From NCBI GenBank assembly GCA_027887005.1, contig JAPCJI010000001.1:124001-188000 (forward strand): a DNA stretch of 64,000 nucleotides. Reading direction: 5' to 3'. Made by a program: the position numbers and the translations under genes. The stretch's first letter is position 1. Each line of letters starts with the position of its first letter. Shown here one piece after another: positions 19,143-57,742 of this stretch. Source of the DNA: Nitrososphaerota archaeon (lineage in GTDB: Archaea > Thermoproteota > Nitrososphaeria > Nitrososphaerales > Gagatemarchaeaceae). Under the pieces are notes generated by a model. The model saw nothing but the letters and a program-made list of their open reading frames with translations. It searched no databases and was not told the DNA's origin.

Positions 19143-20360
19143 ATGAACATAATCTACGTCACTCCGGACGTCGCCATCCCCTACTTCAGGGGCGCCTCCA
19201 CTCATGTGTTCGAGGTTTCAAAAAACCTCTCCGCTCGGGGTCATCACGTCTCCGTGGTCTCGCGCCGGTTGAATCGTTCACAGCCCAGGTGGGAGGCAAT
19301 CGATGGGTTCGAAACTTACAGGACGTTCCAGGGTCTGGCGTTTGAGCCGCCAATGTCGAGTTACAGCAGATCTCATGTAGACAGGGAGAGCCTCTCCTCC
19401 ATCCAACGTGTCTATTCCTGGTATCTCGGTTCCTATCGCGCTTTTCAACTGGGTGTGGAGGTTGCGACCGTGATGTCGGGCAGGGAGGCTGACATCGTCA
19501 TTGAGCGAGAGACGGCGTTCGGGGCCGGGGCTGTGCTGAGTTCGATTCTGGGCGTCCCGATGGTTCTTGAAATGATAGGTCCGAGAGTGAGTGTGTTATC
19601 TTTGAAGCGAGCAAGCAAAGTCCTGGCGTATTCCACGAGAATGGTGGGGGGTAGGGTCCCCCGCGAGAAGCTGGAGATTGTCTCGGGCGGGGTGAATACA
19701 GAGATGTTCAGGCCAGACCCGGAGGCAGGAGCTAGGGTAAGAAGCAGGTACGGGCTGACAGATGAGTTTGTAGTGGGGTATGTTGGCACGTTTCCGAAGT
19801 GGCACGGAGTGAACGCCCTCTTGTCTGCCTGCAGAGTGCTTGATTCTGCTGTCCGGAAGGTCAAGGTCTTACTCGTGGGTCCGTACTACGCTGACGCAAG
19901 GCAATTCGCGGAGGGTATCGGGATGGGAGACAAAGCCCTATTCGCTGGGCCTGTCTCTTATGATATGGTCCCAGAATATATCAACGCCTGTGATGTCCTT
20001 TGCGCACCCTATGACCCCACCCTCTCACGGATTAGGAAGGAACGCGGAATCGGCGCCCCGCTCAAAGTGTTAGAATACATGGCCTGCCAGAAGGCAGTGA
20101 TATCGACCAATGTGGGACCGGTGAATGAAGTTGTGGAAAGCGGAAGGACAGGGGTACTCGTTCCTCCCGGAGATGTGAACTCCATCACAGACGCAATAAG
20201 GGGATTCATCGAAGGCCCGGACCTCTTGGAAAGAATGGGGATCGAGGCAAGGAAGGAAGTAATCGCCAAGTACTCCTGGCACAGGCTCGCGGAGATTCTT
20301 GAAGGAATCCTTTACTCCGCAAGTTCTCCCCGCATTGGGAGGCAAGAAGCGCTGAGTTGA
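19143..20360 (+). CDS. GT4-family glycosyltransferase
   Basis: A 405-residue GT-B enzyme. It opens with NIIYVTPDVAIPYFRGASTH. The donor half has VVGYVGTFPKWHGVNALLSA and an acidic motif in ERGIGAPLKVLEYMACQKAV, followed by GPVNEVVESGRTGVLVPPGD. Predicted to add a sugar to the lipid-linked glycan on the cytoplasmic face. About 110 bases separate it from the membrane operon, and its stop shares bases with the TTG start of the ABC ATPase, so synthesis and export genes are coupled here. Confidence 0.87.
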   Translation: MNIIYVTPDVAIPYFRGASTHVFEVSKNLSARGHHVSVVSRRLNRSQPRWEAIDGFETYRTFQGLAFEPPMSSYSRSHVDRESLSSIQRVYSWYLGSYRAFQLGVEVATVMSGREADIVIERETAFGAGAVLSSILGVPMVLEMIGPRVSVLSLKRASKVLAYSTRMVGGRVPREKLEIVSGGVNTEMFRPDPEAGARVRSRYGLTDEFVVGYVGTFPKWHGVNALLSACRVLDSAVRKVKVLLVGPYYADARQFAEGIGMGDKALFAGPVSYDMVPEYINACDVLCAPYDPTLSRIRKERGIGAPLKVLEYMACQKAVISTNVGPVNEVVESGRTGVLVPPGDVNSITDAIRGFIEGPDLLERMGIEARKEVIAKYSWHRLAEILEGILYSASSPRIGRQEALS

Positions 20361-21433
20361 GCGTCTTGGAAGGAGCCACCAAGCAGTCAGAACGCGAGTC
20401 TGTTCCCCCCGCGGTGAAGATCACCGATCTCTACAAGAGATACTCCGGGCGGAAACGGGGACGCGACCTCTCGCCGAGAGGTTTCCTGAAGTCCATCTTG
20501 GTTGGGAAGGAATGGGAAACAATCGCGCTCGACAGGGTCAGCTTGACAGTCGAGCATGGCGACGTCTTCGGGCTTCTTGGTCCCAACGGCTCGGGGAAGA
20601 CGACGATGATTAAGATTCTGGCCAACCTCGTCATACCGGACTCGGGCACGGCCTATGTGGAAGGCATCAACGTGGTCCGGAGGCCCTATGCCGCCGCCAA
20701 AAGGCTTCAGACCGTCCTGGCCGAATCGATTGGTTTGGAGAAGCGGGTTACCGTGAGGCAGAACCTTCAGCTCTTTGCATCTCTGTACGGTTTGCCCAAG
20801 CAAGAAGCTAACGAAAGAATTGATAGGCTCCTTGACTACTTCGGGTTGAGCGAAGTCACTGACAAACAGTCACAGTCGCTTTCCACCGGGATGTCGCGGA
20901 AGTTGTCTATCTGCAGAGTGCTCCTCAGCAATGCCTCGGTGGTCGTCTTCGACGAGCCAACAAGCGGCTTGGACCCTTCTGCTGCAGAGAACTTAAGGGA
21001 GTTGCTCGTGCGAGACCTTGTTAAGCGCGAAAAGAAGACCATCATCATAGCTACGCACAATCTGGCCGAAGCAAACTCGATTTGCACTCGCATAGCCCTC
21101 CTGAACAGAGGCAGGCTGATCGCCCTAGGTAGTCCGGAAGAGATCAGGAGGAGCGTCCAAGATCAAGTTGACATAGCCATTACAATCACCGGGGCGGACG
21201 GCAATCTGGAAGAGTTGCGTGAGAAGCTTGGAAAAGTTGACGGTGTATTTTCGGTCGAACTTGTCGAAAGGCACCAATCCAAACAGATTCGGCTAACGGG
21301 AAGGAAGGACATGCGTTACCTGGATGTCTTTTCTCTGGTGTCGGCCCGCGGGTTGGAGGTGCTCTCAATGGAGACCTCGTCCCCCTCGCTTGAAGACGCA
21401 TTCATCCGGTTGACCCGCGAGGCCAAGAAGTGA
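20357..21433 (+). CDS. ABC transporter ATPase of an ABC-2 (polysaccharide-type) exporter
   Basis: A 358-residue ATP-binding subunit. Walker A is GPNGSGKTT (about residue 76), the signature is LSTGMSRKL in place of LSGGQ, Walker B is VVVFDEPTSGLD and the switch histidine is in ATHN. The last 100 residues form a regulatory domain of the kind seen in multidrug/polysaccharide ABC-2 ATPases (DVFSLVSARGLEVLSME). An insert of about 20 residues (KRGRDLSPRGFLKSILVGKE) separates the first strand from the core, recalling KpsT/Wzt/TagH-like ATPases. No carbohydrate-binding Wzt C-domain is present. It should energise export of the glycan or its lipid-linked form through the permease at 21430. Confidence 0.88.
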   Translation: MSVLEGATKQSERESVPPAVKITDLYKRYSGRKRGRDLSPRGFLKSILVGKEWETIALDRVSLTVEHGDVFGLLGPNGSGKTTMIKILANLVIPDSGTAYVEGINVVRRPYAAAKRLQTVLAESIGLEKRVTVRQNLQLFASLYGLPKQEANERIDRLLDYFGLSEVTDKQSQSLSTGMSRKLSICRVLLSNASVVVFDEPTSGLDPSAAENLRELLVRDLVKREKKTIIIATHNLAEANSICTRIALLNRGRLIALGSPEEIRRSVQDQVDIAITITGADGNLEELREKLGKVDGVFSVELVERHQSKQIRLTGRKDMRYLDVFSLVSARGLEVLSMETSSPSLEDAFIRLTREAKK

Positions 21434-22266
21434 AGTTCTATTCCTTCGAATGGGGGAAGATATTGGCGCTGATGCGAAGAGACTTCCGTAACTGGTCCTC
21501 GTACAAAATGCAGGTAGCCATCGCCATCATGGGCGCGCTTGTAGGGTTCGCGTCTTGGGGCTTTAATGCGAGCTACAGAAACGTCACAGTCACATTCCAG
21601 TCCTTCCAATCGACCCCCGTTTATCAGACATCGTATCTGTCCTTCATCATCACTGGGATACTAGTGTCCAACGTTGTACTATCGCTTACAGGTGGATTGA
21701 CAAGCGGACTCCGTCCGTGGATGCTTGAAAGCATTCTGATGACAGGAATGAGGCCATCCACCTTCGTATTGGGGACTGTGGCCTTTTCCTACTCTCTTTC
21801 GGTTGTTTTCTTCATTCCTCAACTTATGATAGGGGTTTTCTTTTTCAATGCGGGCCTAAATGTGAACTACCTCTCCTTCATCGTTTCGGTGCTGATCTCT
21901 GGAGTAATCGTCTTTGGGATTTCGATGGCCAGTGTGGGACTACGGCTGGTTACGAAGGTGTCAGACCCCATCAGCTGGATGCTCGGAATCTCCATGTCGC
22001 TTCTTTCTGGACAGACATTTCCAGTTCAGTACCTCAACAACTTCTTCCCCGGCATATCAAACATCTCGTGGGCCCTTCCCTACACCTGGATCTTCGACAT
22101 CATCAGACTCTCGACCCTGACAGGCGCGTCGATCTTCGAACCTAGCGTTGCCGTGGCCTTCCTCGTCAGCCTCGCCTATGCGTTGGTCCTCGTTCCGGTC
22201 GGCCTCTACGTCTTCCTTTGGGGACTTCGCAAGGCGAAGAAGCAGGGAACCCTGGGCTGGTTCTGA
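21430..22266 (+). CDS. ABC-2 type transporter permease
   Basis: A 278-residue membrane protein. GTG 21430 overlaps the ATPase stop by four bases. An N-terminal amphipathic stretch (KILALMRRDFRNWSSYKMQV) precedes about six helices, including VAIAIMGALVGFASWGF and VLISGVIVFGISMASVGL, a layout typical of ABC2_membrane proteins. A GQTFPVQYLNNFFPGISNIS loop lies before the last pair of helices, as in lipid or polysaccharide exporters. Its partner is the adjacent ATPase. Substrate unknown; the context points to a surface glycan. Confidence 0.85.
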   Translation: MKFYSFEWGKILALMRRDFRNWSSYKMQVAIAIMGALVGFASWGFNASYRNVTVTFQSFQSTPVYQTSYLSFIITGILVSNVVLSLTGGLTSGLRPWMLESILMTGMRPSTFVLGTVAFSYSLSVVFFIPQLMIGVFFFNAGLNVNYLSFIVSVLISGVIVFGISMASVGLRLVTKVSDPISWMLGISMSLLSGQTFPVQYLNNFFPGISNISWALPYTWIFDIIRLSTLTGASIFEPSVAVAFLVSLAYALVLVPVGLYVFLWGLRKAKKQGTLGWF

Positions 22267-30932: not shown

Positions 30933-31718
30933 ATGACCAGATACAGCGTCTGCATGACGTGTTTCAACGAAGTCGCAACCGTCAGAGACTCTCTCAGCAG
31001 CCTCCTCGGGCAGCTTAACGAGAATTTTGAGGTCGTCATCGTGGATAACTTCAGCAACGACGGGACATACGAAGTACTCAGGGAATTCGAACAGTCCCAC
31101 GGGGTGAAGGTTATTCGGAGGCGATGTTCGCGGGGATTGGGCCGCCAGTTCGCCTTCGAGAACGCATCGGGAGAGTACATAATCGCGAACCTGGACCTTG
31201 ATGACACATTCCTGCCTGTCCTGAATGAAGTGGTGACGAGGTATCACGAGATAGTTGGAGGGAAACTGTTGGCAGTATTCAACTCCTCCCCCCCTCCCGA
31301 CATGACCAGGGGGTGGACGCAGAACATCACAATCGGCCCTCAGAAGCTGATCGCGTCGCTTGGCGGGTGGCGCGACTTGAACGTGTTCGAGGATTGGGAC
31401 ATCTGGAGCCGGGCGAACAAGCAGCAAAGTTTCGGTTGGACTTCGTTCAGGTTTGCGGCGAACGAGACTCTTCATCCGGTGTCAAGACGGGCTCTCACCA
31501 GGTTGGTCCAAAGGTATGAACGGTACCGCAACAGACTCCGGCTCGGATTGAAGATCTTCAGCCCCGGCGAGAATATTGGCCTTTCGCAGAGGCTTGCCTA
31601 TACTGGTGCCCGACTGTCTCTCCTTTCCCAGGGAGCTCTCGTCGGCCAAGATCCAGAATTCAACTCGCTGGACATTGGTCTCTTCATCGACTTTGGGGCA
31701 GGCGAATCGCGTGAATAG
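30933..31718 (+). CDS. Divergent GT2-like glycosyltransferase, copy 1 of a pair
   Basis: A 261-residue protein from ATG 30933, with GGAG eight bases upstream. It has a short GT2 fold: YSVCMTCFNEVATVRDSLSS, VVIVDNFSNDGTYEVL, then RRRCSRGLGRQFAFENASGE and NLDLDDTF in place of DxD. SLGGWRDLNVFEDWDIWSRA corresponds to the acceptor/base region. The CSRGxGR segment is shared with the protein at 34172 and is not usual in GT2 enzymes, so the two form a distinct subgroup. Its end overlaps the HprK-like gene start. Confidence 0.8.
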   Translation: MTRYSVCMTCFNEVATVRDSLSSLLGQLNENFEVVIVDNFSNDGTYEVLREFEQSHGVKVIRRRCSRGLGRQFAFENASGEYIIANLDLDDTFLPVLNEVVTRYHEIVGGKLLAVFNSSPPPDMTRGWTQNITIGPQKLIASLGGWRDLNVFEDWDIWSRANKQQSFGWTSFRFAANETLHPVSRRALTRLVQRYERYRNRLRLGLKIFSPGENIGLSQRLAYTGARLSLLSQGALVGQDPEFNSLDIGLFIDFGAGESRE

Positions 31719-32958
31719 TCCGAAGGGGGAAGGTGGAGAAGAGGAACGAAGCTACGATGTTCATGGGGCAGTAGCGATGAGACTGGTCGGTCATGACCCG
31801 GTTTCTGAGATAATTGATAGGACGCTGAGTTTCTTTAGGTCTCCGACAAAGACTCCCGATCTAACATTGGTCCTCGGACAATATCCGAGCCAGGAATGGA
31901 CGCCCACTGGAACACTCGTCGGAGACAGAATCCTCTACGACCCGGAGAGCAGAACGACGAGTGTCCTTCGCAACAAGGCCACCAAGAAGGTAGTGAGGTC
32001 CGAGGCCGAATACGTGGTGATCGGGGACCTCCGAGCTTGGGGAGAACCGGTGACCGTCTACGTTCCAAGCCTGCGGAGACCCATGACTCCGCGGAAGACT
32101 TTCGGTCGAGATGTCAGGCACGGCCATTTGAGGCGGGCTATGCTCGCCGTGGCGGGTAACCCCCTCGGGATGAGACAGGTTGTCCGACAGGCTGAAATGA
32201 TAACTGAGGCTATTCTCGAGCCGTTCCTTTTCTACAGGCTCCCAGCAAAAGGACTGAGCCTCATCCACGCTGCTTCCGTCTGCTCCCAAAGCGCTGCGAC
32301 GGTGTTCGCTGGGTCGGCGAACATCGGTAAGAGCACCCTTGCGCTCCGTTTCGCGAAGGAGAAAGCAGCCTTCCTAGGAGACGCCCTAGTAATCTTGGCA
32401 GAGAGTGGCGAGGTTCTGCCATATCCCGGGCTAGTCAAGCTGCACGGGGGACACTTGGCATCATTCCCAGAACTCAGAATTCGCCTTACGGCAGGAATGG
32501 GTCCGATTGGTACCTACCTCCTTCGGAGCGAGCTGTCCGCCAACCCCATGGAGGCGCTCGAATCTCTCCCACAGCGCGAGATGGTGGAGCTATTCGATGA
32601 GGTCATTATACCGAAACGCTGTAAGCTGAAAGAAGTCGTACTTATCAGACGGGGACCCTTCGCTGAGGCCAAAGTCGAAGAGATTGACCCCGAGTTGCTA
32701 GCCCGAGTCCTGTCTGCGGAAATTTATTGGGAGGCTGAGGCTGCTCCGTGGCGCAACGGACAATTCATCTACGCTCCCTCGGCTGCCACCGGGAGGGACT
32801 TCTTTCAGGAGGCAGCGGAGCATCACGCCAAAGTTGACGAGATCATGCGTAGGGGAGTTGCCAATGCGAAGTGCTTCATGGTAGCTCTCCCGATCGAGGC
32901 GCCTGTCCAGATGGTTGAGGGTCTGGTCCCCGGGTTCAGGGGCTCGACGCAAGACTGA
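31711..32958 (+). CDS. HPr-kinase/phosphorylase-like P-loop protein
   Basis: A 415-residue protein from GTG 31711, overlapping the GT2 gene by eight bases. The P-loop FAGSANIGKSTLAL is near residue 200, preceded by LIHAASV, the arrangement of HprK-type kinases; FLGDALVIL is in the place of the Walker B region. The N-terminal 190 residues form a separate domain. Archaea generally lack the PTS protein HPr, so the target must differ: perhaps a small molecule or a carrier protein. HprK-like proteins in bacteria occur beside glycosyltransferase and peptide-maturation genes. A kinase acting on a sugar or lipid intermediate is possible but unproven. Confidence 0.72.
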   Translation: MNSPKGEGGEEERSYDVHGAVAMRLVGHDPVSEIIDRTLSFFRSPTKTPDLTLVLGQYPSQEWTPTGTLVGDRILYDPESRTTSVLRNKATKKVVRSEAEYVVIGDLRAWGEPVTVYVPSLRRPMTPRKTFGRDVRHGHLRRAMLAVAGNPLGMRQVVRQAEMITEAILEPFLFYRLPAKGLSLIHAASVCSQSAATVFAGSANIGKSTLALRFAKEKAAFLGDALVILAESGEVLPYPGLVKLHGGHLASFPELRIRLTAGMGPIGTYLLRSELSANPMEALESLPQREMVELFDEVIIPKRCKLKEVVLIRRGPFAEAKVEEIDPELLARVLSAEIYWEAEAAPWRNGQFIYAPSAATGRDFFQEAAEHHAKVDEIMRRGVANAKCFMVALPIEAPVQMVEGLVPGFRGSTQD

Positions 32959-41625: not shown

Positions 41626-42852
41626 TCACTTTGCGTGAACCAGCGCGAGAACCCTGTCCACAATCCTGGGAATCCTCGATTCGATGGAAAACGCTTCAAA
41701 ATGCCTGGCTTGATCCTCCGCTTCTGAGTGGAGAAGCCCATGGTCCTTCTGGACGTTCTTCAGAGCACTCAGAAAGCTCTGATAGTCCGAGTCGACCCAG
41801 ACGACGCCCTTCAAGTGTGAGTAGTCAAGCTTGCTGATTTCAGTCTTTGTCGCAATGATCGGCGTGCCTACGGCAACGGACTCGGCGATCTTAAGCCAGT
41901 TGGAGTGTGTTGAGAATCGGAACTTCGTGCTTACGGGGCAGATAGTAACGTCGCTTGCTGCTATGTAGTCAGGAAGCTTGGTGTAAGGAATTGTTCCAAG
42001 CATGGTGAATGAATTACCTGCTTCTGTGCTTCGGAGCCTATCAAATTCGCCAAGCAGCGGTCCTTCTCCACCAATCAGGAAGTGAGCGTTGGGTATCTCT
42101 CTCGCTAGGTTTTCTATGAGTGGGACGATGATTTCCTTTATCATGCGATAGGAGTGCATTAAGCCAAACCAGCCGATTACAAATCTACCCTCTAGCCCCA
42201 ACTTAGATTTCGCGTCGTTTGGCTTGACTTGTGGTTTGAAAACCTCCGGATCAATCCCCCTGAAGATCCCAAGTACCTTTTTCTCTGGAATGCCCTCGGA
42301 TATGTAAAGCTCGGAGTACGCTTCTGAAGGCAGGATAATCAGGTCAGTTTGTCTGAGCAATAGCGAACGGATCAAAGAGAGCCGCCTGTGTATCTTCGTC
42401 CCCTCGTTCAACTCGCCCGCGGCGATCTCGAAATCCACGTAGGGGTCTCTTTGGTCTAGAACAAGCTTCACACCGAATCCGCGCAAGATCATCTGGCACG
42501 CCAGACGCGCCCAAGGCTTCTTCCTAAGGAATAGCCACTCGTCCTCATAGACCACCTGAATCCTTCGAGTGGCGCAGTACAAGGCTAGAGGTAGAGCTTG
42601 GAGCGCCTCGGGGAGGTGGCCCCCCCTTGGAGCCCTGAGCACGGCGAATTGTATCCCGTCTTTGTTCCATCTTTTCTTGGGTCCTCCGAGCTGCACCCAA
42701 TTGACCGTGAGCCCTCGCCTTTTCATTTCCTCGGACACGTAATAATTTTTCATGTTGTGAATGTCGGGAGGATAATTCATTCTCCCGCTGAACAAAAATG
42801 CGACTCGCGGCCCCCCCTTGGAACCAACATCCTGCGGACTCGCTCGGGCCAC
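41626..42852 (-). CDS. GT4-like glycosyltransferase, divergent donor motif
   Basis: A 408-residue GT-B protein from GTG 42852. RVAFLFSGRMNYPPDIHNMK opens the N-terminal domain, and FVIGWFGLMHSYRMIKEIIV with IGGEGPLLGEFDRL belongs to the donor domain. The region that normally holds E-x7-E reads TKFRFSTHSNWLKIAESVAV, keeping only the second Glu. A CTTAAGG-type box at 42872-42878 is about 23 bases upstream. It may be a true but atypical glycosyltransferase; the acceptor is unknown. Confidence 0.8.
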   Translation of the reverse strand: MARASPQDVGSKGGPRVAFLFSGRMNYPPDIHNMKNYYVSEEMKRRGLTVNWVQLGGPKKRWNKDGIQFAVLRAPRGGHLPEALQALPLALYCATRRIQVVYEDEWLFLRKKPWARLACQMILRGFGVKLVLDQRDPYVDFEIAAGELNEGTKIHRRLSLIRSLLLRQTDLIILPSEAYSELYISEGIPEKKVLGIFRGIDPEVFKPQVKPNDAKSKLGLEGRFVIGWFGLMHSYRMIKEIIVPLIENLAREIPNAHFLIGGEGPLLGEFDRLRSTEAGNSFTMLGTIPYTKLPDYIAASDVTICPVSTKFRFSTHSNWLKIAESVAVGTPIIATKTEISKLDYSHLKGVVWVDSDYQSFLSALKNVQKDHGLLHSEAEDQARHFEAFSIESRIPRIVDRVLALVHAK

Positions 42853-44964: not shown

Positions 44965-46236
44965 TTGAACTCATGTCAAACCATTTCGCCCAAAACCCCA
45001 AATCAGGGGTTAGAGGAAGCGGGGGACCTTGACAACACTTCCATCTTGTATTCAAACGGGACCTCCAACTTCTACAGGATGCCTGGCTTGACGAAATTGA
45101 GAGTCCTGATTGTCACCCCATCGTTCCCGCCGCTACGAAACGGGACGGCGAGGCTGATTGGAAACATAGCTGATTCCCTGAGCGCAGGAGGATCCTCCGT
45201 CGTTGTACTCACCCGCCGAACAGGGGCATTGCCTGCTCGCGAAAGCGCGAATGGAGTCTACATCATGCGCATTTCTGCTAGCTCCTCATTTTTCGGGAAG
45301 ATTTCCTTCGTGATTCAATCCTTGGTGCTTCTGGCGGTCTCTATTCGGCGCTGGCGGATCGAGGTGATTCATTCCGTCGGCACGGCGGCGCTAGCCTCTT
45401 CGATATTCGGGTCGCTCTTCTCTCGACCGATCATCGTGACCTTCCCCGGGCTGCCCGCTGAATCAAAGCGATCTGGAGACCCTCAGAGGGCCGTTAAGAC
45501 GAAAGCCCGCGGGATACTACGTGTCCTTTCCCTTTTTCCTCGATACGCGACCGTCCCTACGAAAGGGGCATTGGGGCCAATTGTCGAGCTCTGCGGCGAA
45601 CGAATCGCCGAGAGAATTCGGGTGATTTCGAACCCGATGGATGTGGCCAAGTTCTCACCTTCTGGTCGCGCGAGGCCCGAAGGAAACTTCCCCGAGATAC
45701 TGGTTGTGGGCGGACTCCGGTCAAGAAAGGGCGTTGGGACCTTGATTCGTGCCCTTCCCGTGGTCTTGCATGAATACCCAACCCTTAGAGTGACTCTTGT
45801 GGGGAGTGGGTCGTTTGCGCCTAGCCTCGAAAGGCTGATTCAGAAGTTGGGCATAGCAGGGTCGATAGGATGGACGGGAGAGGTCAGTGACGAACAGCTC
45901 ATTGATCGCTACGAGGACAGCGATGTGGTCGTAGTTCCTTCCCTTGCCGGAGGAGAAGCGTTCGGATACGTCGTTGCCGAAGCAATGTGCATGAAGAAGC
46001 CGGTGATTGCGTCCGCAACGCCTGGGCCGTCAGAGATCATCACAGACGCCAACTGCGGCCTCTTGTTTCCTCCTGGAGACCAGGCCGAGCTAGCGGCACT
46101 GATTCTTCGGATCGCAAGAGACGACACTCAATGCAGGTTGTTCGGCGAAAATGGCAGGCGTTACGCAGAAGAGCATTTCGACTCAAAGAAAGTGATTGTG
46201 GAATTCGAGGACTTGTACAGAAAGGCAATAGGTTGA
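44965..46236 (+). CDS. GT4-family glycosyltransferase
   Basis: A 423-residue GT-B enzyme. The fold begins at LRVLIVTPSFPPLRNGTARL, about residue 45, so ATG 45079 may be the real start and the first 38 residues may be non-native. Donor domain: ILVVGGLRSRKGVGTLIRAL, GSGSFAPSLERLIQKLG and E-x7-E in GEAFGYVVAEAMCMKKPVI. SIRRWRIEVIHSVG and flanking hydrophobic residues suggest membrane contact. It is the last glycosyltransferase before the extracellular-protein group. Confidence 0.85.
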   Translation: MNSCQTISPKTPNQGLEEAGDLDNTSILYSNGTSNFYRMPGLTKLRVLIVTPSFPPLRNGTARLIGNIADSLSAGGSSVVVLTRRTGALPARESANGVYIMRISASSSFFGKISFVIQSLVLLAVSIRRWRIEVIHSVGTAALASSIFGSLFSRPIIVTFPGLPAESKRSGDPQRAVKTKARGILRVLSLFPRYATVPTKGALGPIVELCGERIAERIRVISNPMDVAKFSPSGRARPEGNFPEILVVGGLRSRKGVGTLIRALPVVLHEYPTLRVTLVGSGSFAPSLERLIQKLGIAGSIGWTGEVSDEQLIDRYEDSDVVVVPSLAGGEAFGYVVAEAMCMKKPVIASATPGPSEIITDANCGLLFPPGDQAELAALILRIARDDTQCRLFGENGRRYAEEHFDSKKVIVEFEDLYRKAIG

Positions 46237-46447: not shown

Positions 46448-49117
46448 TTGAGGAAGAAAGATTCAAGTTTACTTGTTCTCGCTATCTTGGTGGTCTCCTC
46501 ACTCTATCCGATGATCCTGACTTCTACAGTCGCGCCAGTCAGTGCATCAGGCGGAGCGCGCTTGGGCTTCTGGGTTGACGAGCGCGACCAATGGAGCGGC
46601 ATCGGCTATAACTGGACGCCACAGCAGTTCATAACGAATTACTTCAATACCGCGCCGTTCCCATCTGCCATGGTCTGGGCGACTTCGATGACCCCTGGAG
46701 GTCCCAATAACCCCGGTGCGTTGGGCGAGGCCGCGTGGCTCTCGCAGCTTGCGAGTCTATGCAAGTCGTCGAACCTAAATGTCGAGATAATACTTCTTAT
46801 GTTCATCAACCTCTCCGGAACCACAGTCAATGGCGTTCCGGATCAGACTGCGCTCTTCACCCAATACGTAGCCGCGCTCGGAACTCACTCGAACATTGCA
46901 GGTTTCGAGTACGAGCGCGAGTATTACGGTAACACCGTCTCGGAGAACACCGCTTTCAGAGACATAGTCCAAGGGGCGGGCTATACTTGGATCATCGACC
47001 CTTCAATGGTGCCGAACTTCTCAACTGGGCCTGTCCTTGACTACTCCACCTACCCCTACTTCGGCGCGACAATCCCCTCTTCGCTCTCTTCGGGCTCTCG
47101 AAGCATGGGGGTCGGGTACGGGGAGACGGGGTCCCCGACGGGCAATACTCCTAACCCCGCGTGGACTCAAACGAGCGTCCAGGCCATTGTCGACACATCT
47201 CCAGCCAATCCCTACGTTCTGCTCTACTCGGGAAGCGGAGGGACGGGCCAACCTTCCTATCAACTCTGGAACTGGCCCACGCTCCGGAACTGGATATGGA
47301 ATGACCCCAGCTACCAGCAGAACTTCGTGCTTTCCACCCTTTCGGGAGGGGGCGGTACGACCACGACTTCCACCAGCACCACTTCCTCCACGAGTTCAAC
47401 GACTAGCACGTCTTCCTCCACCACTCGTTCCACCTCCACAACGTCTTCAACATCTACCACGAAGTCCACTTCCACGGCGACCACCTCCAAGTCCACCACG
47501 ACAACTACTTCCACTGTGACCACGGCCAAGTCCACAACGACAACTTCGACCTCTTCTTCGGCAGCAACAACGAGTTCGACCACCACGTCGACGACAACGC
47601 CTACAAGTCCAACTTCGACCTCTTCCTCGACAACCACAACCAGCTCTGCGACCACGACGTCAACTTCAAGCAGTCCTAGTCTAACAACCTCGCAGCCGGC
47701 ACCGACAAGAACAAGCACTTCCCAGGGCACGCCATCGTACACGCTTTCGGTCGTGGGCGTTTGTGTCTCGTCTGGGGCAGGGTCCTATGTGGATGGCTCC
47801 ACGGCGACCGTCGAATTCACGGGAGTCTGCTCGAGAAGCCAAGGATCGGGGGTCAGGGTGATCTCCTGGTCACTTGACGGCGGACGAAACACCACCGTTC
47901 AAACTCCTGCTGCGTCTAGCATCTCAGTACTCATGGATACATCTCATACTGTCAGACTCTACTCCGTTGCTCAGTACCAGTTATCCCTCGACTACGGAGC
48001 CGAGACCTCTATGCTGTCTGTCACGTCTCCCAGCATTCCGGGGGACGGCTATTGGTACGACTCCGGGACCACTGTCTCATTTGCCGGCGAGGTCGGGGTA
48101 GTTGGGTTCCAGGTCACGGGCTGGGCGCTGGATGGTTCGGGCACCAACTCGGTTTCAAGCGCCACAACGTTCTCCTCGACCCCATTTGCCATGACCAAAC
48201 CACGTTCACTCACCATCGTTCTCACTCCTGCCTCCGGTCCCTCATGTGGGTTGTCCAGTTGTACTTCAGCACCGGTATTCGATATGACCGTCAAGACAGA
48301 CAAGAACGTTGCTGGTGGGGTCTGGGTCGATGGGACTTCCTTCCCCCAGACAGTGACATTCTCCTGGCCAGCTGGGTCGATTCACAATATCACCGCGATC
48401 CAAAGCGACATTGATTCGTCGGTGCGCGAATACTTCAGCCACTGGTCTGGAGACTCTACCTCCCGATCACCGACCATCACGTTGATTGTTAACAAGACTG
48501 GGTATTTGGCGCCAGAATATCATTCACAATACTTGGTGTCTTTGGCTTTTACAGACGCTGGGGGAAGCCCTCTGACGCCTCAGGCCGTCACCCTAGACGG
48601 GCCTGCCGGCGTGCAGAAGCTCGGGCCGAATCTGTCGATGTGGGCAATCGAGGGAGACAACTACAAGTTGACTTCGGTGTCCTGGTCGGGCTCGAACGTG
48701 GTGATGGACAATGCATCCGTGTTCAGCGTGAACTTCCCTCAAACCATTGCCTTCCCGCTCGCCGTTTATCCACAGGTCGTCAGGGCCACCGACGTCTATG
48801 GCTTGCGGCTCCAGGGTGCGATGGTCAACGTCACAACTTCGACCGGCGTCGGCTTCTCAATGAAGACCGATGCCCAAGGAATAGTCCGATTCAGAGTCCC
48901 ATTCGGGATATATGCTGCCACTGTCAGCTATTTGGGGGTGACCGAACAGATTGTCCCAAACAGTCTGGGGAGTCACACCTTCACAGTAAGTTTCTTGCTC
49001 AGCTATCCTCTCTTCGCAACCGTTGGGGCCGCAACTGCCATAGCCTGCGTCTTCGTTTTCGTCAGACTTCGGAGGAGACCAGACTTTCAAGGCATATACT
49101 ACTTCGACTCGGAATAA
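46448..49117 (+). CDS. Membrane-anchored extracellular protein A: DERD domain, Thr/Ser stalk, Ig-like domains
   Basis: An 889-residue protein from TTG 46448. Signal peptide (LLVLAILVVSSLYPMILTS), then a domain of about 260 residues (35-295) with LGFWVDERDQWSG, GFEYEREYYGNT, VLDYSTYPYFG and WNWPTLRNWIW. A stalk of about 115 residues made almost only of Thr and Ser (300-415) follows, then three or four beta-sandwich segments (YTLSVVGVCVSSGAGSYVDG and onward; VRATDVYGLRLQGAMVNVT near 780). A membrane helix (LFATVGAATAIACVFVFV) and RLRRR tail end it. The first domain is shared with 49907 and 51480. Acidic clusters and aromatic strips suggest a TIM-barrel glycoside hydrolase or sugar-binding protein; this is inference. 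Confidence 0.78.
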   Translation: MRKKDSSLLVLAILVVSSLYPMILTSTVAPVSASGGARLGFWVDERDQWSGIGYNWTPQQFITNYFNTAPFPSAMVWATSMTPGGPNNPGALGEAAWLSQLASLCKSSNLNVEIILLMFINLSGTTVNGVPDQTALFTQYVAALGTHSNIAGFEYEREYYGNTVSENTAFRDIVQGAGYTWIIDPSMVPNFSTGPVLDYSTYPYFGATIPSSLSSGSRSMGVGYGETGSPTGNTPNPAWTQTSVQAIVDTSPANPYVLLYSGSGGTGQPSYQLWNWPTLRNWIWNDPSYQQNFVLSTLSGGGGTTTTSTSTTSSTSSTTSTSSSTTRSTSTTSSTSTTKSTSTATTSKSTTTTTSTVTTAKSTTTTSTSSSAATTSSTTTSTTTPTSPTSTSSSTTTTSSATTTSTSSSPSLTTSQPAPTRTSTSQGTPSYTLSVVGVCVSSGAGSYVDGSTATVEFTGVCSRSQGSGVRVISWSLDGGRNTTVQTPAASSISVLMDTSHTVRLYSVAQYQLSLDYGAETSMLSVTSPSIPGDGYWYDSGTTVSFAGEVGVVGFQVTGWALDGSGTNSVSSATTFSSTPFAMTKPRSLTIVLTPASGPSCGLSSCTSAPVFDMTVKTDKNVAGGVWVDGTSFPQTVTFSWPAGSIHNITAIQSDIDSSVREYFSHWSGDSTSRSPTITLIVNKTGYLAPEYHSQYLVSLAFTDAGGSPLTPQAVTLDGPAGVQKLGPNLSMWAIEGDNYKLTSVSWSGSNVVMDNASVFSVNFPQTIAFPLAVYPQVVRATDVYGLRLQGAMVNVTTSTGVGFSMKTDAQGIVRFRVPFGIYAATVSYLGVTEQIVPNSLGSHTFTVSFLLSYPLFATVGAATAIACVFVFVRLRRRPDFQGIYYFDSE

Positions 49118-49222
49118 CGAATATCCTCGAGGCCGCCGAATCAGGTGAAATGTCAAGAACAATCGTTGGATTAGGTCATGATTGCCTAAACCCTGGTTAA
49201 GCGCGAACCAGGCCTGATTCGA

Positions 49223-49705
49223 GTGTCTCGGCATAGACGGCTAGTCGCCGATCTCGTTGTGTCGGCTTTCATACCGTTCTTGGGCATCTGGCTCTATGAA
49301 ATGACTAATTGGATGGCTCTGGCACTTCAGGGCTATGGTGTTTCTCTCAGCATGGCGGGGTGGATGCCTTTGGGAGTCTCGGCAGTGACTTCATCGGGAC
49401 CCTCCCCTTTGACCAAGGTGGTCCAAGTGGCCGTTGCCATCGGCCTCCTGCTGCCGCTGAGGAAGCTTTTCTCCAGCACTAGGCTCCCTCTGGCCGAGGC
49501 CTTGGTCGTCTCTTCAGTCGGCATCTTTCTCGCCAGCGGATATTGGGAGATGCTCTCCCTTCTGACAGTTCTGCCAACTGCGATTCATATGGGCATCTTC
49601 ATCTCCGGCACAGGCGCCTCGGTGCTAGTACTGCTCCATGGTAGCCAAATCGGTCGACCCCGTCACTTCGCACGCACTTCTGCGCGCCCAGCACCACGCT
49701 TGTAG
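49223..49705 (+). CDS. Small polytopic membrane protein
   Basis: A 160-residue protein from GTG 49223. Four hydrophobic segments (LVVSAFIPFLGIWLYEM, VVQVAVAIGLLLPL, ALVVSSVGIFLASGYWEML, LPTAIHMGIFISGTGASVLV). The C-terminus is basic (RPRHFARTSARPAPR). It lies just after protein A and convergent with protein B. Family unknown; a membrane partner of the extracellular proteins is possible. Confidence 0.65.
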   Translation: MSRHRRLVADLVVSAFIPFLGIWLYEMTNWMALALQGYGVSLSMAGWMPLGVSAVTSSGPSPLTKVVQVAVAIGLLLPLRKLFSSTRLPLAEALVVSSVGIFLASGYWEMLSLLTVLPTAIHMGIFISGTGASVLVLLHGSQIGRPRHFARTSARPAPRL

Positions 49706-49906
49706 GGGGACGCACTACTATCTGGTTGGCGCCCTGCAATAGAAGGGGCACCTGCAGAAACCGCCAGTCTGCCGGCAGACCACCTACATGATAGAGTGAG
49801 CTTCGGAAACCCTGACCTCGTCAGATTGAATTCGTAGGCGGCGGATTGCCTTCTCCGCATGGTGAGTCGATAATAGTGATCGCCTAGGGCTCCATGAGTA
49901 TGGCGC

Positions 49907-51037
49907 TCATCCATAAGTGGAAAGCACGAAGTCTTGCTGGTAGTTGGAGTCAGTCCAAATCCAATTTCTGAGCGTAGGCCAGTTCCACATCCGCGTTGAC
50001 GGTTGGCCTGCGGGTAAATATCCCGCGCCCGCATATACCAGGACGTAGGGATCGGCTGGAGATGTGTCTACAATGGCCTGGACGCTCGTTTGAGTCCACG
50101 CTGGAGTCGGAGTCGAACCAGTTGGAGCACCAGTTTCTCCATATCCTATCCCTATGCTGCTTGAGCCCGAGGGGAGCGAGCTGGGAATAGTCCCTCCGAA
50201 GTAGGGATAGCTCGAGTAATCCAAAACCGGATCAGAGGGAAAGTTGCTCATCATCGAGGGGTCGACTACGTTGGTGTAACCCGCCCCGTTGATGATGGTC
50301 CTGAATCCAGCGACCTCCGCGACGGTGTTGCCGTAGTATTCCCGCTCGTATTCACAGCCAGCGATATTCGTGTGGCTTCCGAGCGCGCTCATGTATTGGG
50401 TGAGGAGAGTGGTCTGGTCTGGAACCCCGTTGATGGTTCCTCCCGAGAGGTTGACGAAGAAGAGAATCACTATCCTCACGTTCAGCCCTTGGGACTGTGC
50501 CAGGCTCGCTACCCGTGAGAGCCACAGGGCCTCCCCTATCGCGCTTGGCGCGTTCGGTCCAGTAGGCGTCATGGCTGTCGCGAAAAGCATCGCTGAAGGG
50601 TAGGGCGCAGTCAGGAAGTAGTTAGTTACGAACTGCTGGGAAGTCCAGTTGAGGCCTACCCCGCTCCACATGTCCCTCTCATCAATCCAGAATCCGAGCC
50701 TGTACGTTGCAATTACGGTTCGAGTCGTCGTTATTGTCCTGTTGGTGATGATTGTGGTCTGGGTCCTGATTGTTGTGGTTTGAATCGTTTGAGTGGTTTG
50801 GGTGGTTCGGGTCGTGGTCGTTATGGTTTGGGTCGTTGCCGTCGACGTCGTTGTGATTGTGCTAAGTGGGAGAGTGCATGAATGGGTCTCGCAGGCGTTG
50901 GTCGTGGCGCCACCTGCGATGTCGAGGTATGCAAGAGCGCTAACAACAGAAGCGACACAAACTATGCCGATTACGAAGATGGCTGCCCAGAAAGTGTTCT
51001 TCGTTGTCCACGTCTTCATTCGCGCGGCGAATGTCAT
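49907..51037 (-). CDS. Membrane-anchored extracellular protein B: N-terminal helix, Thr stalk, DERD domain
   Basis: A 376-residue protein. ATG 51037 is chosen because TTAAAG (51062-51067) is centred about 27 bases upstream. Residues 15-40 form a membrane helix (FWAAIFVIGIVCVASVVSAL). A Thr/Ile-rich stalk of about 50 residues with a preceding CETHSC pair follows, then the shared domain from LGFWIDERDMWSGVGL to WNWPTLRNWIWTD. This places the domain outside, held by an N-terminal anchor. It is the same domain as in proteins A and C, which flank it. Confidence 0.78.
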   Translation of the reverse strand: MTFAARMKTWTTKNTFWAAIFVIGIVCVASVVSALAYLDIAGGATTNACETHSCTLPLSTITTTSTATTQTITTTTRTTQTTQTIQTTTIRTQTTIITNRTITTTRTVIATYRLGFWIDERDMWSGVGLNWTSQQFVTNYFLTAPYPSAMLFATAMTPTGPNAPSAIGEALWLSRVASLAQSQGLNVRIVILFFVNLSGGTINGVPDQTTLLTQYMSALGSHTNIAGCEYEREYYGNTVAEVAGFRTIINGAGYTNVVDPSMMSNFPSDPVLDYSSYPYFGGTIPSSLPSGSSSIGIGYGETGAPTGSTPTPAWTQTSVQAIVDTSPADPYVLVYAGAGYLPAGQPSTRMWNWPTLRNWIWTDSNYQQDFVLSTYG

Positions 51038-51061
51038 CCGAATTTTCAAGCGCGCGGGGAA

Positions 51062-51067
51062 TTAAAG
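51062..51067 (-). promoter_or_regulatory. TATA-like box for extracellular protein B
   Basis: CTTTAA on the minus strand, centred about 27 bases from ATG 51037. Confidence 0.55.
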
Positions 51068-51199
51068 GTTTCACTGCTCCACATCGTGAGTGGGTCAGGT
51101 GGTGGGCTGCTTTGATTCTTGAGGTAATGAGGGTCGTCTTGGTCGGGCTGGGTGGTTGGGCTGAGTCGAACAGTGGACGAGTGGGACACGAAGTTTGAC

Positions 51200-51427
51200 A
51201 TGACCGACAGTAAGGGAGGCTCGAACGAGCCGGTGGTGGTCGATGCTACTCGCTTGCTTCAATCGTTCGTCAAGATCGCGAAGTTCACTCGAGGGGGAGA
51301 GAATTGGCCACCCGTTGATGGCACTGCATCTGAGCTTGATGGAAATGCAAATACGTTCCTTCAATGTGTCATGATAGGCTTATCTCTCTGTATGACATGG
51401 ATATTGTATGTTCGTGTTATTCAATAA
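51200..51427 (+). CDS. Possible small protein with C-terminal membrane helix
   Basis: A frame of 75 codons from ATG 51200 (the open frame extends to 51152). It has an acidic N-terminus, a segment VVVDATRLLQSFVKIAKFTR and a hydrophobic C-terminus (FLQCVMIGLSLCMTWILYV). Codon use is more AT-rich than in its neighbours, and the 3' end runs into the promoter region of protein C. It is the only possible gene in the 430-base gap 51050-51479. Could be chance. Confidence 0.3.
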   Translation: MTDSKGGSNEPVVVDATRLLQSFVKIAKFTRGGENWPPVDGTASELDGNANTFLQCVMIGLSLCMTWILYVRVIQ

Positions 51428-51479
51428 CACAGGCAATTATATCTGAACCGGAACATCCCCAAGAAGGAAGTACTAGTCG

Positions 51480-52361
51480 ATGTCGAAGTTCCCCTTGTTC
51501 CTTGCGATTATCCTCGTAGTCAGTCTTCTCTCAGTCCCCGCTGCTATTGCTCAACCAACGCACAGGCTCGGATTCTGGATTGATGAGAGGGACATGTGGA
51601 GCGGGGTAGGCCTACATTGGTCACCCCAGCAGTTCGTAACCAACTACTTCCTGACTGCGCCGTATCCGTCGGCCATGGTCTTTGCCACGGCGATGACACC
51701 TGACGGCCCATACGCTGGCACGTTGGGGGGAGCGCTGGGGGAATCCAAGTGGTTGGGACAGGTGGCGAGCCTGGCACAGTCCCAAGGGCTGAACGTGAGG
51801 ATAGTGATTCTCTTCTTCGTCAACCTCTCGGGAAAGACGATTGGAGGTATTGGGGACCAGGCTGGGCTCCTGACCAAGTACATGCAGGCACTCGGGAGCC
51901 ATACAAGCATAGTTGGTTGTGAATACGAGCGGGAATACTACGGCAACACCGTCGCGGAGGTCACCACGTTCAAGAGCATCGTAAACAAAGCGGGATGCAC
52001 CAACATAGCCGACCCCACGCAGAAGGCCAACTTTCTCTCCGACCCAGTCCTGGACTATTCGATCTATCCATATTTCGGAGGGACAGTTCCTGGCGCGCTT
52101 CTCGCAGGTTCCCGGAGCATAGGGCTAGGATACGGGGAGATAGGAGTGCCTTCTGGCAATACTCCCAACCCCGCATGGACCCAGGCAAGCGTTCGCTCTA
52201 TCGTCGATGCGTCCCCTGGCAGTTCCTTCGTACTGATTTACTCAGACAACGGCGGCAAAGGCCAGCCATCGTGGGAGTTGTGGAACTGGCCCACGCTCCG
52301 GAACTGGATATGGACTGACTCCAACTACAAACTCAATTACGTTCTGTCCACGACCAAGTAG
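51480..52361 (+). CDS. Secreted protein C: signal peptide plus DERD domain only
   Basis: A 293-residue protein from ATG 51480. Signal peptide (PLFLAIILVVSLLSVPAAIA, cleavage near AIAQ), then the shared domain alone: LGFWIDERDMWSGVGLHWSP, CEYEREYYGNTVAEV, VLDYSIYPYFGG and WNWPTLRNWIWTDSN. No stalk or second anchor, so it should be released or held by partners. AATTATATC at 51434-51442 may be its promoter. Proteins A, B and C together show one domain in three membrane topologies within 6 kb. Confidence 0.8.
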   Translation: MSKFPLFLAIILVVSLLSVPAAIAQPTHRLGFWIDERDMWSGVGLHWSPQQFVTNYFLTAPYPSAMVFATAMTPDGPYAGTLGGALGESKWLGQVASLAQSQGLNVRIVILFFVNLSGKTIGGIGDQAGLLTKYMQALGSHTSIVGCEYEREYYGNTVAEVTTFKSIVNKAGCTNIADPTQKANFLSDPVLDYSIYPYFGGTVPGALLAGSRSIGLGYGEIGVPSGNTPNPAWTQASVRSIVDASPGSSFVLIYSDNGGKGQPSWELWNWPTLRNWIWTDSNYKLNYVLSTTK

Positions 52362-57127: not shown

Positions 57128-57190
57128 GTGTGTTTTCGGTTATCCGGCATTCCTGAGCATTGGCGAATGGCCCAGGTTGGGCCGGCAGCC

Positions 57191-57742
57191 ATGAATGTGC
57201 TTTTGGCAGCAGTCTCGAAGGCGAAGAAGAGGATGGGGGTGACCCCGGGGCAATGGGGGGTGTTAGTCGCGGCGTGTGTGATGACAGTTACGGTTGGCAC
57301 AACAGTGGTGCTGACATCAACTCCAACTACCTACGTGGTTACCGACACATCAACAGCCACAGTGGTTTCAACATCGAGCGTCACCAGAACGGCGTCCGAA
57401 GTTCCGACATCGACGGTGACCTCCACTCAAACATTAACTGTGACTTCGGGGACCGGACTCACCTCTGTCAGGACGACCACTACGACTGTCACCACCTCGC
57501 CGAGCACGACGATAACAAGGACGGTCATCACCACCTTGACCGTCGCTTCAACCACAACGGGTACGACGACTTCCACCAGCACTACCTCGACCACTGTTAC
57601 CCAGACGGTCACCTCGACCCAGTCCTCAACTAGCATTGTCACATCAACGAGTACGGTCACATCCACGAATACAGTCACATCCACGAATACAGTCACTTCG
57701 ACGACCACTGTGACCACTACACGCACCACGCGCAGCCACTAG
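57191..57742 (+). CDS. Membrane-anchored Thr/Ser/Val-rich stalk protein
   Basis: A 183-residue protein from ATG 57191; ATG 57167 and TTG/ATG codons further up are alternatives. After a basic stretch (SKAKKRMGVTPGQWG) comes one helix (VLVAACVMTVTVGTTVVL). The remaining 130 residues are almost only Thr, Ser and Val with a few Arg. It is an extended, probably O-glycosylated external stalk like that of protein B, but without any head domain. It may be a surface fibre, a linker protein or a truncated relative of protein B. Confidence 0.65.
   Translation: MNVLLAAVSKAKKRMGVTPGQWGVLVAACVMTVTVGTTVVLTSTPTTYVVTDTSTATVVSTSSVTRTASEVPTSTVTSTQTLTVTSGTGLTSVRTTTTTVTTSPSTTITRTVITTLTVASTTTGTTTSTSTTSTTVTQTVTSTQSSTSIVTSTSTVTSTNTVTSTNTVTSTTTVTTTRTTRSH
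57638..57709 (+). repeat. 18-base tandem repeat in the stalk gene
   Basis: Four units of 18 bases; the second and third (57656-57673 and 57674-57691) are identical (GTCACATCCACGAATACA), and the outer ones differ at several positions. The repeat encodes VTSTNT and suggests slippage-driven length change of the stalk. Confidence 0.8.

Follow-up and report, generated by a model that had tools for sequence, protein, structure and literature searches.

The window analysed here is a stretch of 64,000 nucleotides on contig 1 of an archaeal bin of 1.6 Mb in 26 contigs, and it encodes three paralogous proteins that share one domain, called the head in the following (Table 1). An earlier note on this DNA had reported the three paralogues with three different membrane topologies, and our analysis bore this out: the open reading frames were found, their heads are 62–73% identical over ~260 aa (gene 3 shares 73% with gene 1 and 64% with gene 2), and hydropathy and Ser/Thr scans, from which all topologies were called, gave the same arrangements. 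The sequence blocks quoted at that time were also all found, with WVDERDQWSG in gene 1 and GYGEIG in gene 3 as small variants. Hydrophobic segments are located at residues 7–25 and 847–865 of gene 1 and at residues 6–24 of gene 3, which has no stalk and whose product is predicted to be secreted, and the head of gene 2 starts at residue 117.

Table 1: Features of the window, numbered from its first nucleotide, and proteins with distant heads in two other genomes (last two rows).
Feature	Position	Strand	Description
Gene 1	46448..49117	+	889 aa, TTG start; predicted signal peptide, head, Ser/Thr stalk, Ig-like tail, C-terminal TM anchor
Gene 1 head domain	46559..47338	+	residues 38–297
Gene 1 Ser/Thr-rich stalk	47309..47749	+	residues 288–434; from Ser/Thr scan and composition
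Gene 1 Ig-like tail module	47960..48976	+	common to many surface proteins of the order
Gene 1 C-terminal TM anchor	48986..49042	+	residues 847–865, followed by RLRRR; predicted
Gene 2	49907..51049	-	380 aa, TTG start; predicted N-terminal TM anchor, Thr-rich stalk, C-terminal head
Gene 2 head domain	49916..50701	-	
Gene 2 Thr-rich stalk	50744..50893	-	residues 53–102
Gene 2 N-terminal TM anchor	50930..50986	-	residues 22–40; predicted
Gene 3	51480..52361	+	293 aa; predicted signal peptide and head domain alone
Gene 3 head domain	51564..52352	+	
Glu122 codon (gene 3 domain numbering)	51927..51929	+	end of predicted strand 4; candidate acid/base
Glu192 codon, GYGE	52137..52139	+	end of predicted strand 7 in the window clade; candidate nucleophile
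ABC-exporter-like pair (ATPase, permease)	20357..22266	+	named from sequence reading; syntenic in SubAcS15-15
GT4-type glycosyltransferase	41626..42852	-	orthologues in the distant-head islands of SubAcS15-57 and SubAcS15-15
GT4-type glycosyltransferase	44965..46236	+	directly upstream of gene 1
Distant-clade proteins of SubAcS15-57			954, 482 and 546 aa
Distant-clade proteins of SubAcS15-15			1200 and 487 aa

A search of the genome's contigs revealed exactly these three copies and no fourth. As the differences between them are concentrated at codon position 3 (0.41–0.56, against 0.13–0.20 at position 2), they appear to be real coding genes under purifying selection, and since their GC content of 0.55–0.56 equals that of the surroundings there is no sign of a recent foreign acquisition. 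A headless protein of 204 aa, consisting of one hydrophobic segment followed by a stalk of nearly only Thr, Ser and Val, is encoded at 57128–57742.

From ~7 kb to 63 kb the window is largely occupied by one surface-glycan island with glycosyltransferases, UDP-sugar dehydrogenases, an ABC-exporter-like pair, a polysaccharide pyruvyl transferase and large membrane proteins. The glycan cluster that the earlier note had seen next to the three genes is thus present, and it is syntenic in both other genomes in which we found the head. For two of its genes strong orthologues were detected only in these two genomes, SubAcS15-57 and SubAcS15-15, with weaker ones in few others. A protein with a VGSARVGKTTLA P-loop, HPr-kinase-like by eye, related to island proteins and encoded at 31576–32958, is present in all three glycan islands with 37–40% identity.

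Distribution and homology of the head

The family had been left unnamed before and remains so, as the full proteins gave no credible match in Pfam (up to E 1), NCBIfam or PHROGs, no carbohydrate-active family was matched among the Pfam and NCBIfam profiles, and the PDB sequences, queried with gene 3 and two profiles, gave chance matches or none. IMG/VR, phages and plasmids contained no relative of the head, so nothing points to an origin from a virus or plasmid. The contigs of GTDB r220 include relatives in only two other bins of group I.1c, SubAcS15-57 and SubAcS15-15, which have been described as Thaumarchaeota MAGs from acid subsoil belonging to Ca. Subgagatemarchaeum within the Gagatemarchaeaceae (PMC10640624). 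When 300 genomes of the order were searched with a single protein, only two outside genomes were matched, both weakly, and the best match in each was a protein composed of signal peptide, head, stalk and anchor that adjoins glycosyltransferases. Using a profile search, further copies were added in the same two genomes, giving five distant heads in total, and these are also located in islands with glycosyltransferases and nucleotide-sugar dehydrogenases that are syntenic with the island of the window. No members beyond these three genomes were found in samples of the order, the class and the phylum, but the phylum sample is weak evidence of absence as it had no positive control (the source genome itself gave no match to the profile). 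A match in one further genome (G040) was rejected as it covers only 30 residues and includes an internal stop. As far as sampled, the head family seems to be restricted to one archaeal family.

Window clade and distant clade share only about 22–27% identity, and as a simple HMM test between them was not clearly above shuffled controls and hence not decisive, we used a profile–profile comparison with shuffles. With hhalign the two clades aligned colinearly over the full length with a score of 37.3 (E 1.6e-4), while the top score of 600 column shuffles was 26.1. In addition, all eight heads contain the motif F-x(3,4)-F-x-T-x-P-[YF]-P-[ST], for which 0.006 occurrences per million residues are expected, and the 954-aa (E 5e-50) and the 1200-aa protein (E 2e-39) have tails homologous to that of gene 1 and the same order of parts. 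Taken together, the profile score, the shared motif and the homologous tails make a common descent of the heads of both clades very likely. For the alignment of the eight heads default MAFFT misplaced the middle part, and the colinear alignment given by E-INS-i and hhalign was used. It shows that R-x-G-F, F-x-T-x-P-[YF]-P-S, G-x3-E, [YF]P and the region [LM]W[ND]-x3-[LF]R are kept in the distant members. The blocks with supposedly invariant Asp, Glu and Trp residues, from which the earlier note had argued, mostly reflect close paralogy, since neither WIDERD nor WNWPTLRNWIW is retained in this form in the distant clade.

The 1200-aa protein of SubAcS15-15 (L019:10066-13668, minus strand) contains a second putative barrel at residues ~432–680, AFLRIRALDTNSEWV...FQYVSLDDWGGF, which is located between two Ser/Thr stalks and apparently unrelated to the head; the whole protein has no Pfam match.

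Predicted fold and candidate active site

In order to get an idea of the fold, two AlphaFold2 models were calculated, one for each clade from its own alignment. The model of the window clade reached a mean pLDDT of 49 and a pTM of 0.48, that of the distant clade a mean pLDDT of 59 and a pTM of 0.67 with values of 72–94 (blocks of ten) for residues 1–110; the C-terminal half of the models is unreliable. Both low-confidence models alternate between strand and helix from the N-terminus on, as a (beta/alpha)8 barrel would. A Foldseek search against the PDB gave no match at E 0.001 or better, and the weak matches, with a best E of 0.054 for the window clade and 0.0099 for the distant clade, are mostly TIM barrels: HMG-CoA lyase, GH6, GH5, GH10, aldolase and triosephosphate isomerase for the former, and homocitrate synthase, GH6, chitinases, chitinase-like proteins, O-GlcNAcase and triosephosphate isomerase for the latter. 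The search of viral structure models returned nothing informative. A TIM barrel is thus a probable and moderately supported fold of the head, for which we infer the closure of the barrel.

When the conserved positions of the aligned heads are mapped onto the predicted strands, R-x-G-F, G118-x-x-x-E122 and [YF]-P fall at strands 1, 4 and 6, respectively, F-x-T-x-P-[YF]-P-S and a Gly precede strands 2 and 5, respectively, and a stretch [LM]-W-[ND]-x3-[LF]-R is located near the C-terminus; the row of the 546-aa protein ended before this stretch in the alignment, and its full sequence has LWDNPAFR. Glu122 is invariant in 8/8 heads and the sole acid invariant across both clades in the E-INS-i alignment, preceded by Tyr in the window clade and by Val, Ile, Ala or Asp in the distant clade. 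Glu192 is found in the window clade, and the distant clade has a G-x-D/E nearby, where the alignment is uncertain. The TIM barrel suggested in the earlier note, and the acidic residues at the ends of strands 4 and 7 that it named as a sign of an enzyme, are partly supported: both low-confidence models are compatible with the barrel and the Glu at predicted strand 4 is invariant in all eight heads, whereas the assignment at strand 7 depends on an uncertain alignment.

With its Glu at predicted strand 4, an acid tentatively placed at strand 7 and GH5 and GH10 among its weak structural matches, the head resembles the retaining glycosidases of clan GH-A. It differs from them in having E-x-E or x-x-E instead of Asn-Glu at strand 4, as well as in having no Pfam match and a fold that is predicted only. 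A second resemblance is to GH18 and GH84, which use a substrate-assisted mechanism with the acids at strand 4: chitinases, chitinase-like proteins and O-GlcNAcase are among the better matches of the distant clade, and D-x-E in two distant heads as well as E-x-E in the window clade are located at strand 4. However, the GH18 signature D-x-x-D-x-D-x-E is absent from all eight heads, which also have no Pfam match.

The gene 1 tail and GH135 heads

The Ig-like/InlB-like tail of gene 1 (47960–49114) is a widespread module that carries many different heads; a search of 250 genomes from the order matched it in 33. Its best further match is a protein of 930 aa from one of these genomes (G139), which carries a Spherulin4/GH135 head together with stalk and tail, and a protein from another genome (G112) is built likewise. 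GH135 heads of this kind read G-V-V-I-P-L-Y-T-Y-P ... G-I-F-F-D-E. Some other heads on tails of the gene 1 type are not glycosidase-like (e.g. L040), and hence tail sharing alone is no proof of an enzyme. Within the family, the GH135 profile PF12138 matched 10 of 46 genomes with many copies in several topologies, and the Spherulin4/GH135 proteins of the Gagatemarchaeaceae are expanded (loci L055–L084): one genome can have as many as 7, and they come in stalked, anchored and shorter forms. PF12138 was not matched in any of the three genomes that carry the new head, which is not significant against 10 of 46, and with only three genomes it cannot be claimed that GH135 and the new head exclude each other. 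A related island in a further genome (G130) contains neither GH135 nor the new head in the available 24.5 kb.

The new head is similar to GH135 (PF12138; Sph3, an alpha-1,4-galactosaminogalactan hydrolase) as an extracellular, here predicted, TIM-barrel head of about 230–260 residues that occurs in multiple copies and several topologies and shares its stalk and tail with GH135 proteins of sister genomes, but it shows no detectable sequence relation to it. No PF12138 match was found in the source genome up to E 10 or for the three proteins in Pfam up to E 1, the hhalign scores of 16.5 and 21.4 against local archaeal GH135 heads lie within the range of the shuffled controls from the clade comparison (up to 26.1), and the block G-[IV]-[FL]-[FL]-D-E with its D-E is absent from the head, which reads GCEYERE, GFEYERE or G-x-x-x-E in this region. 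We therefore rejected GH135 as an assignment, given the missing PF12138 match and the profile scores at noise level. A very divergent member of the wider endo-galactosaminidase group (GH114, GH135, GH166 and GH191), all of which are TIM barrels (PMC12054363), would agree in domain size and predicted fold and explain the shared tail, but the same noise-level scores, the empty PF12138 search and the lacking GH135 block make it highly improbable that the head belongs there rather than to a separate family.

Proposed role in the glycan island

The reading we lean towards is that the head represents a new, lineage-restricted TIM-barrel family that is active on glycans, probably a glycosidase for the polysaccharide of its own island, whose activity and substrate we infer. 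One island would then supply the head in three ways: anchored at the C-terminus through a long, glycosylatable Ser/Thr stalk and Ig-like spacers, anchored at the N-terminus through a shorter stalk, and as a free secreted domain. Its likely task would be to trim or remodel the polysaccharide, or the glycans of glycoproteins, that the glycosyltransferase and exporter genes around it produce, or to release them. A precedent would be Sph3 of fungi, a membrane-bound GH135 glycosidase that is dedicated to the extracellular galactosaminogalactan of its own cell, tied to the synthase and needed to make the polymer (PMC12054363). By analogy, the polymer processed by the new heads is probably the one made by their own island.

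The stalked form could also be purely structural or adhesive. More generally, the head might be a TIM-barrel pseudoenzyme or lectin-like domain that binds its own glycan or neighbouring cells, as an adhesin or S-layer-associated spacer without catalysis. Stalks and Ig-like domains with TM anchors are typical of adhesins, heads unlike enzymes also occur on the gene 1 tail, and inactive relatives of TIM-barrel glycosidases exist, with chitinase-like proteins among our Foldseek matches. On the other hand, the Glu of strand 4 is kept in every head despite the low identity between the clades, and a secreted protein consisting of the head only, as encoded by gene 3, fits poorly to an anchored adhesin, so that we regard this explanation as rather unlikely. 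Less probable still is a degradative enzyme, with heads digesting polysaccharides of fungal or bacterial cell walls for nutrition, a role that has been proposed for secreted GH135 and GH92 of this archaeal family. Secreted GH135 and GH92 and a heterotrophic lifestyle have been reported for the Gagatemarchaeaceae (PMC10640624) and a secreted copy does exist with gene 3, but the copies are located within biosynthetic surface-glycan islands and not beside obvious uptake or catabolic genes, and membrane anchoring is predicted for 7 of the 8 heads of both clades.

Going beyond the glycan-active family favoured above, we tentatively propose, at somewhat less than even confidence, a new glycoside hydrolase family confined to group I.1c of acid subsoil that would be dedicated to an archaeal surface polysaccharide and be deployed from one gene island at three distances from the membrane. 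As part of this tentative proposal, heads would have been exchanged on the tail module, which carries GH135 in the sister genomes but here the new family.

To our knowledge, the surface polysaccharides of uncultured soil Thaumarchaeota are essentially uncharacterised, and a head family encoded together with a biosynthetic island would be a specific tool for finding the nature of the polymer. Exchangeable heads on one anchoring tail, belonging to a known glycosidase family in some genomes and to an unnamed predicted barrel in others, moreover form a pattern that can help to annotate the numerous stalked proteins of such genomes that are still hypothetical.
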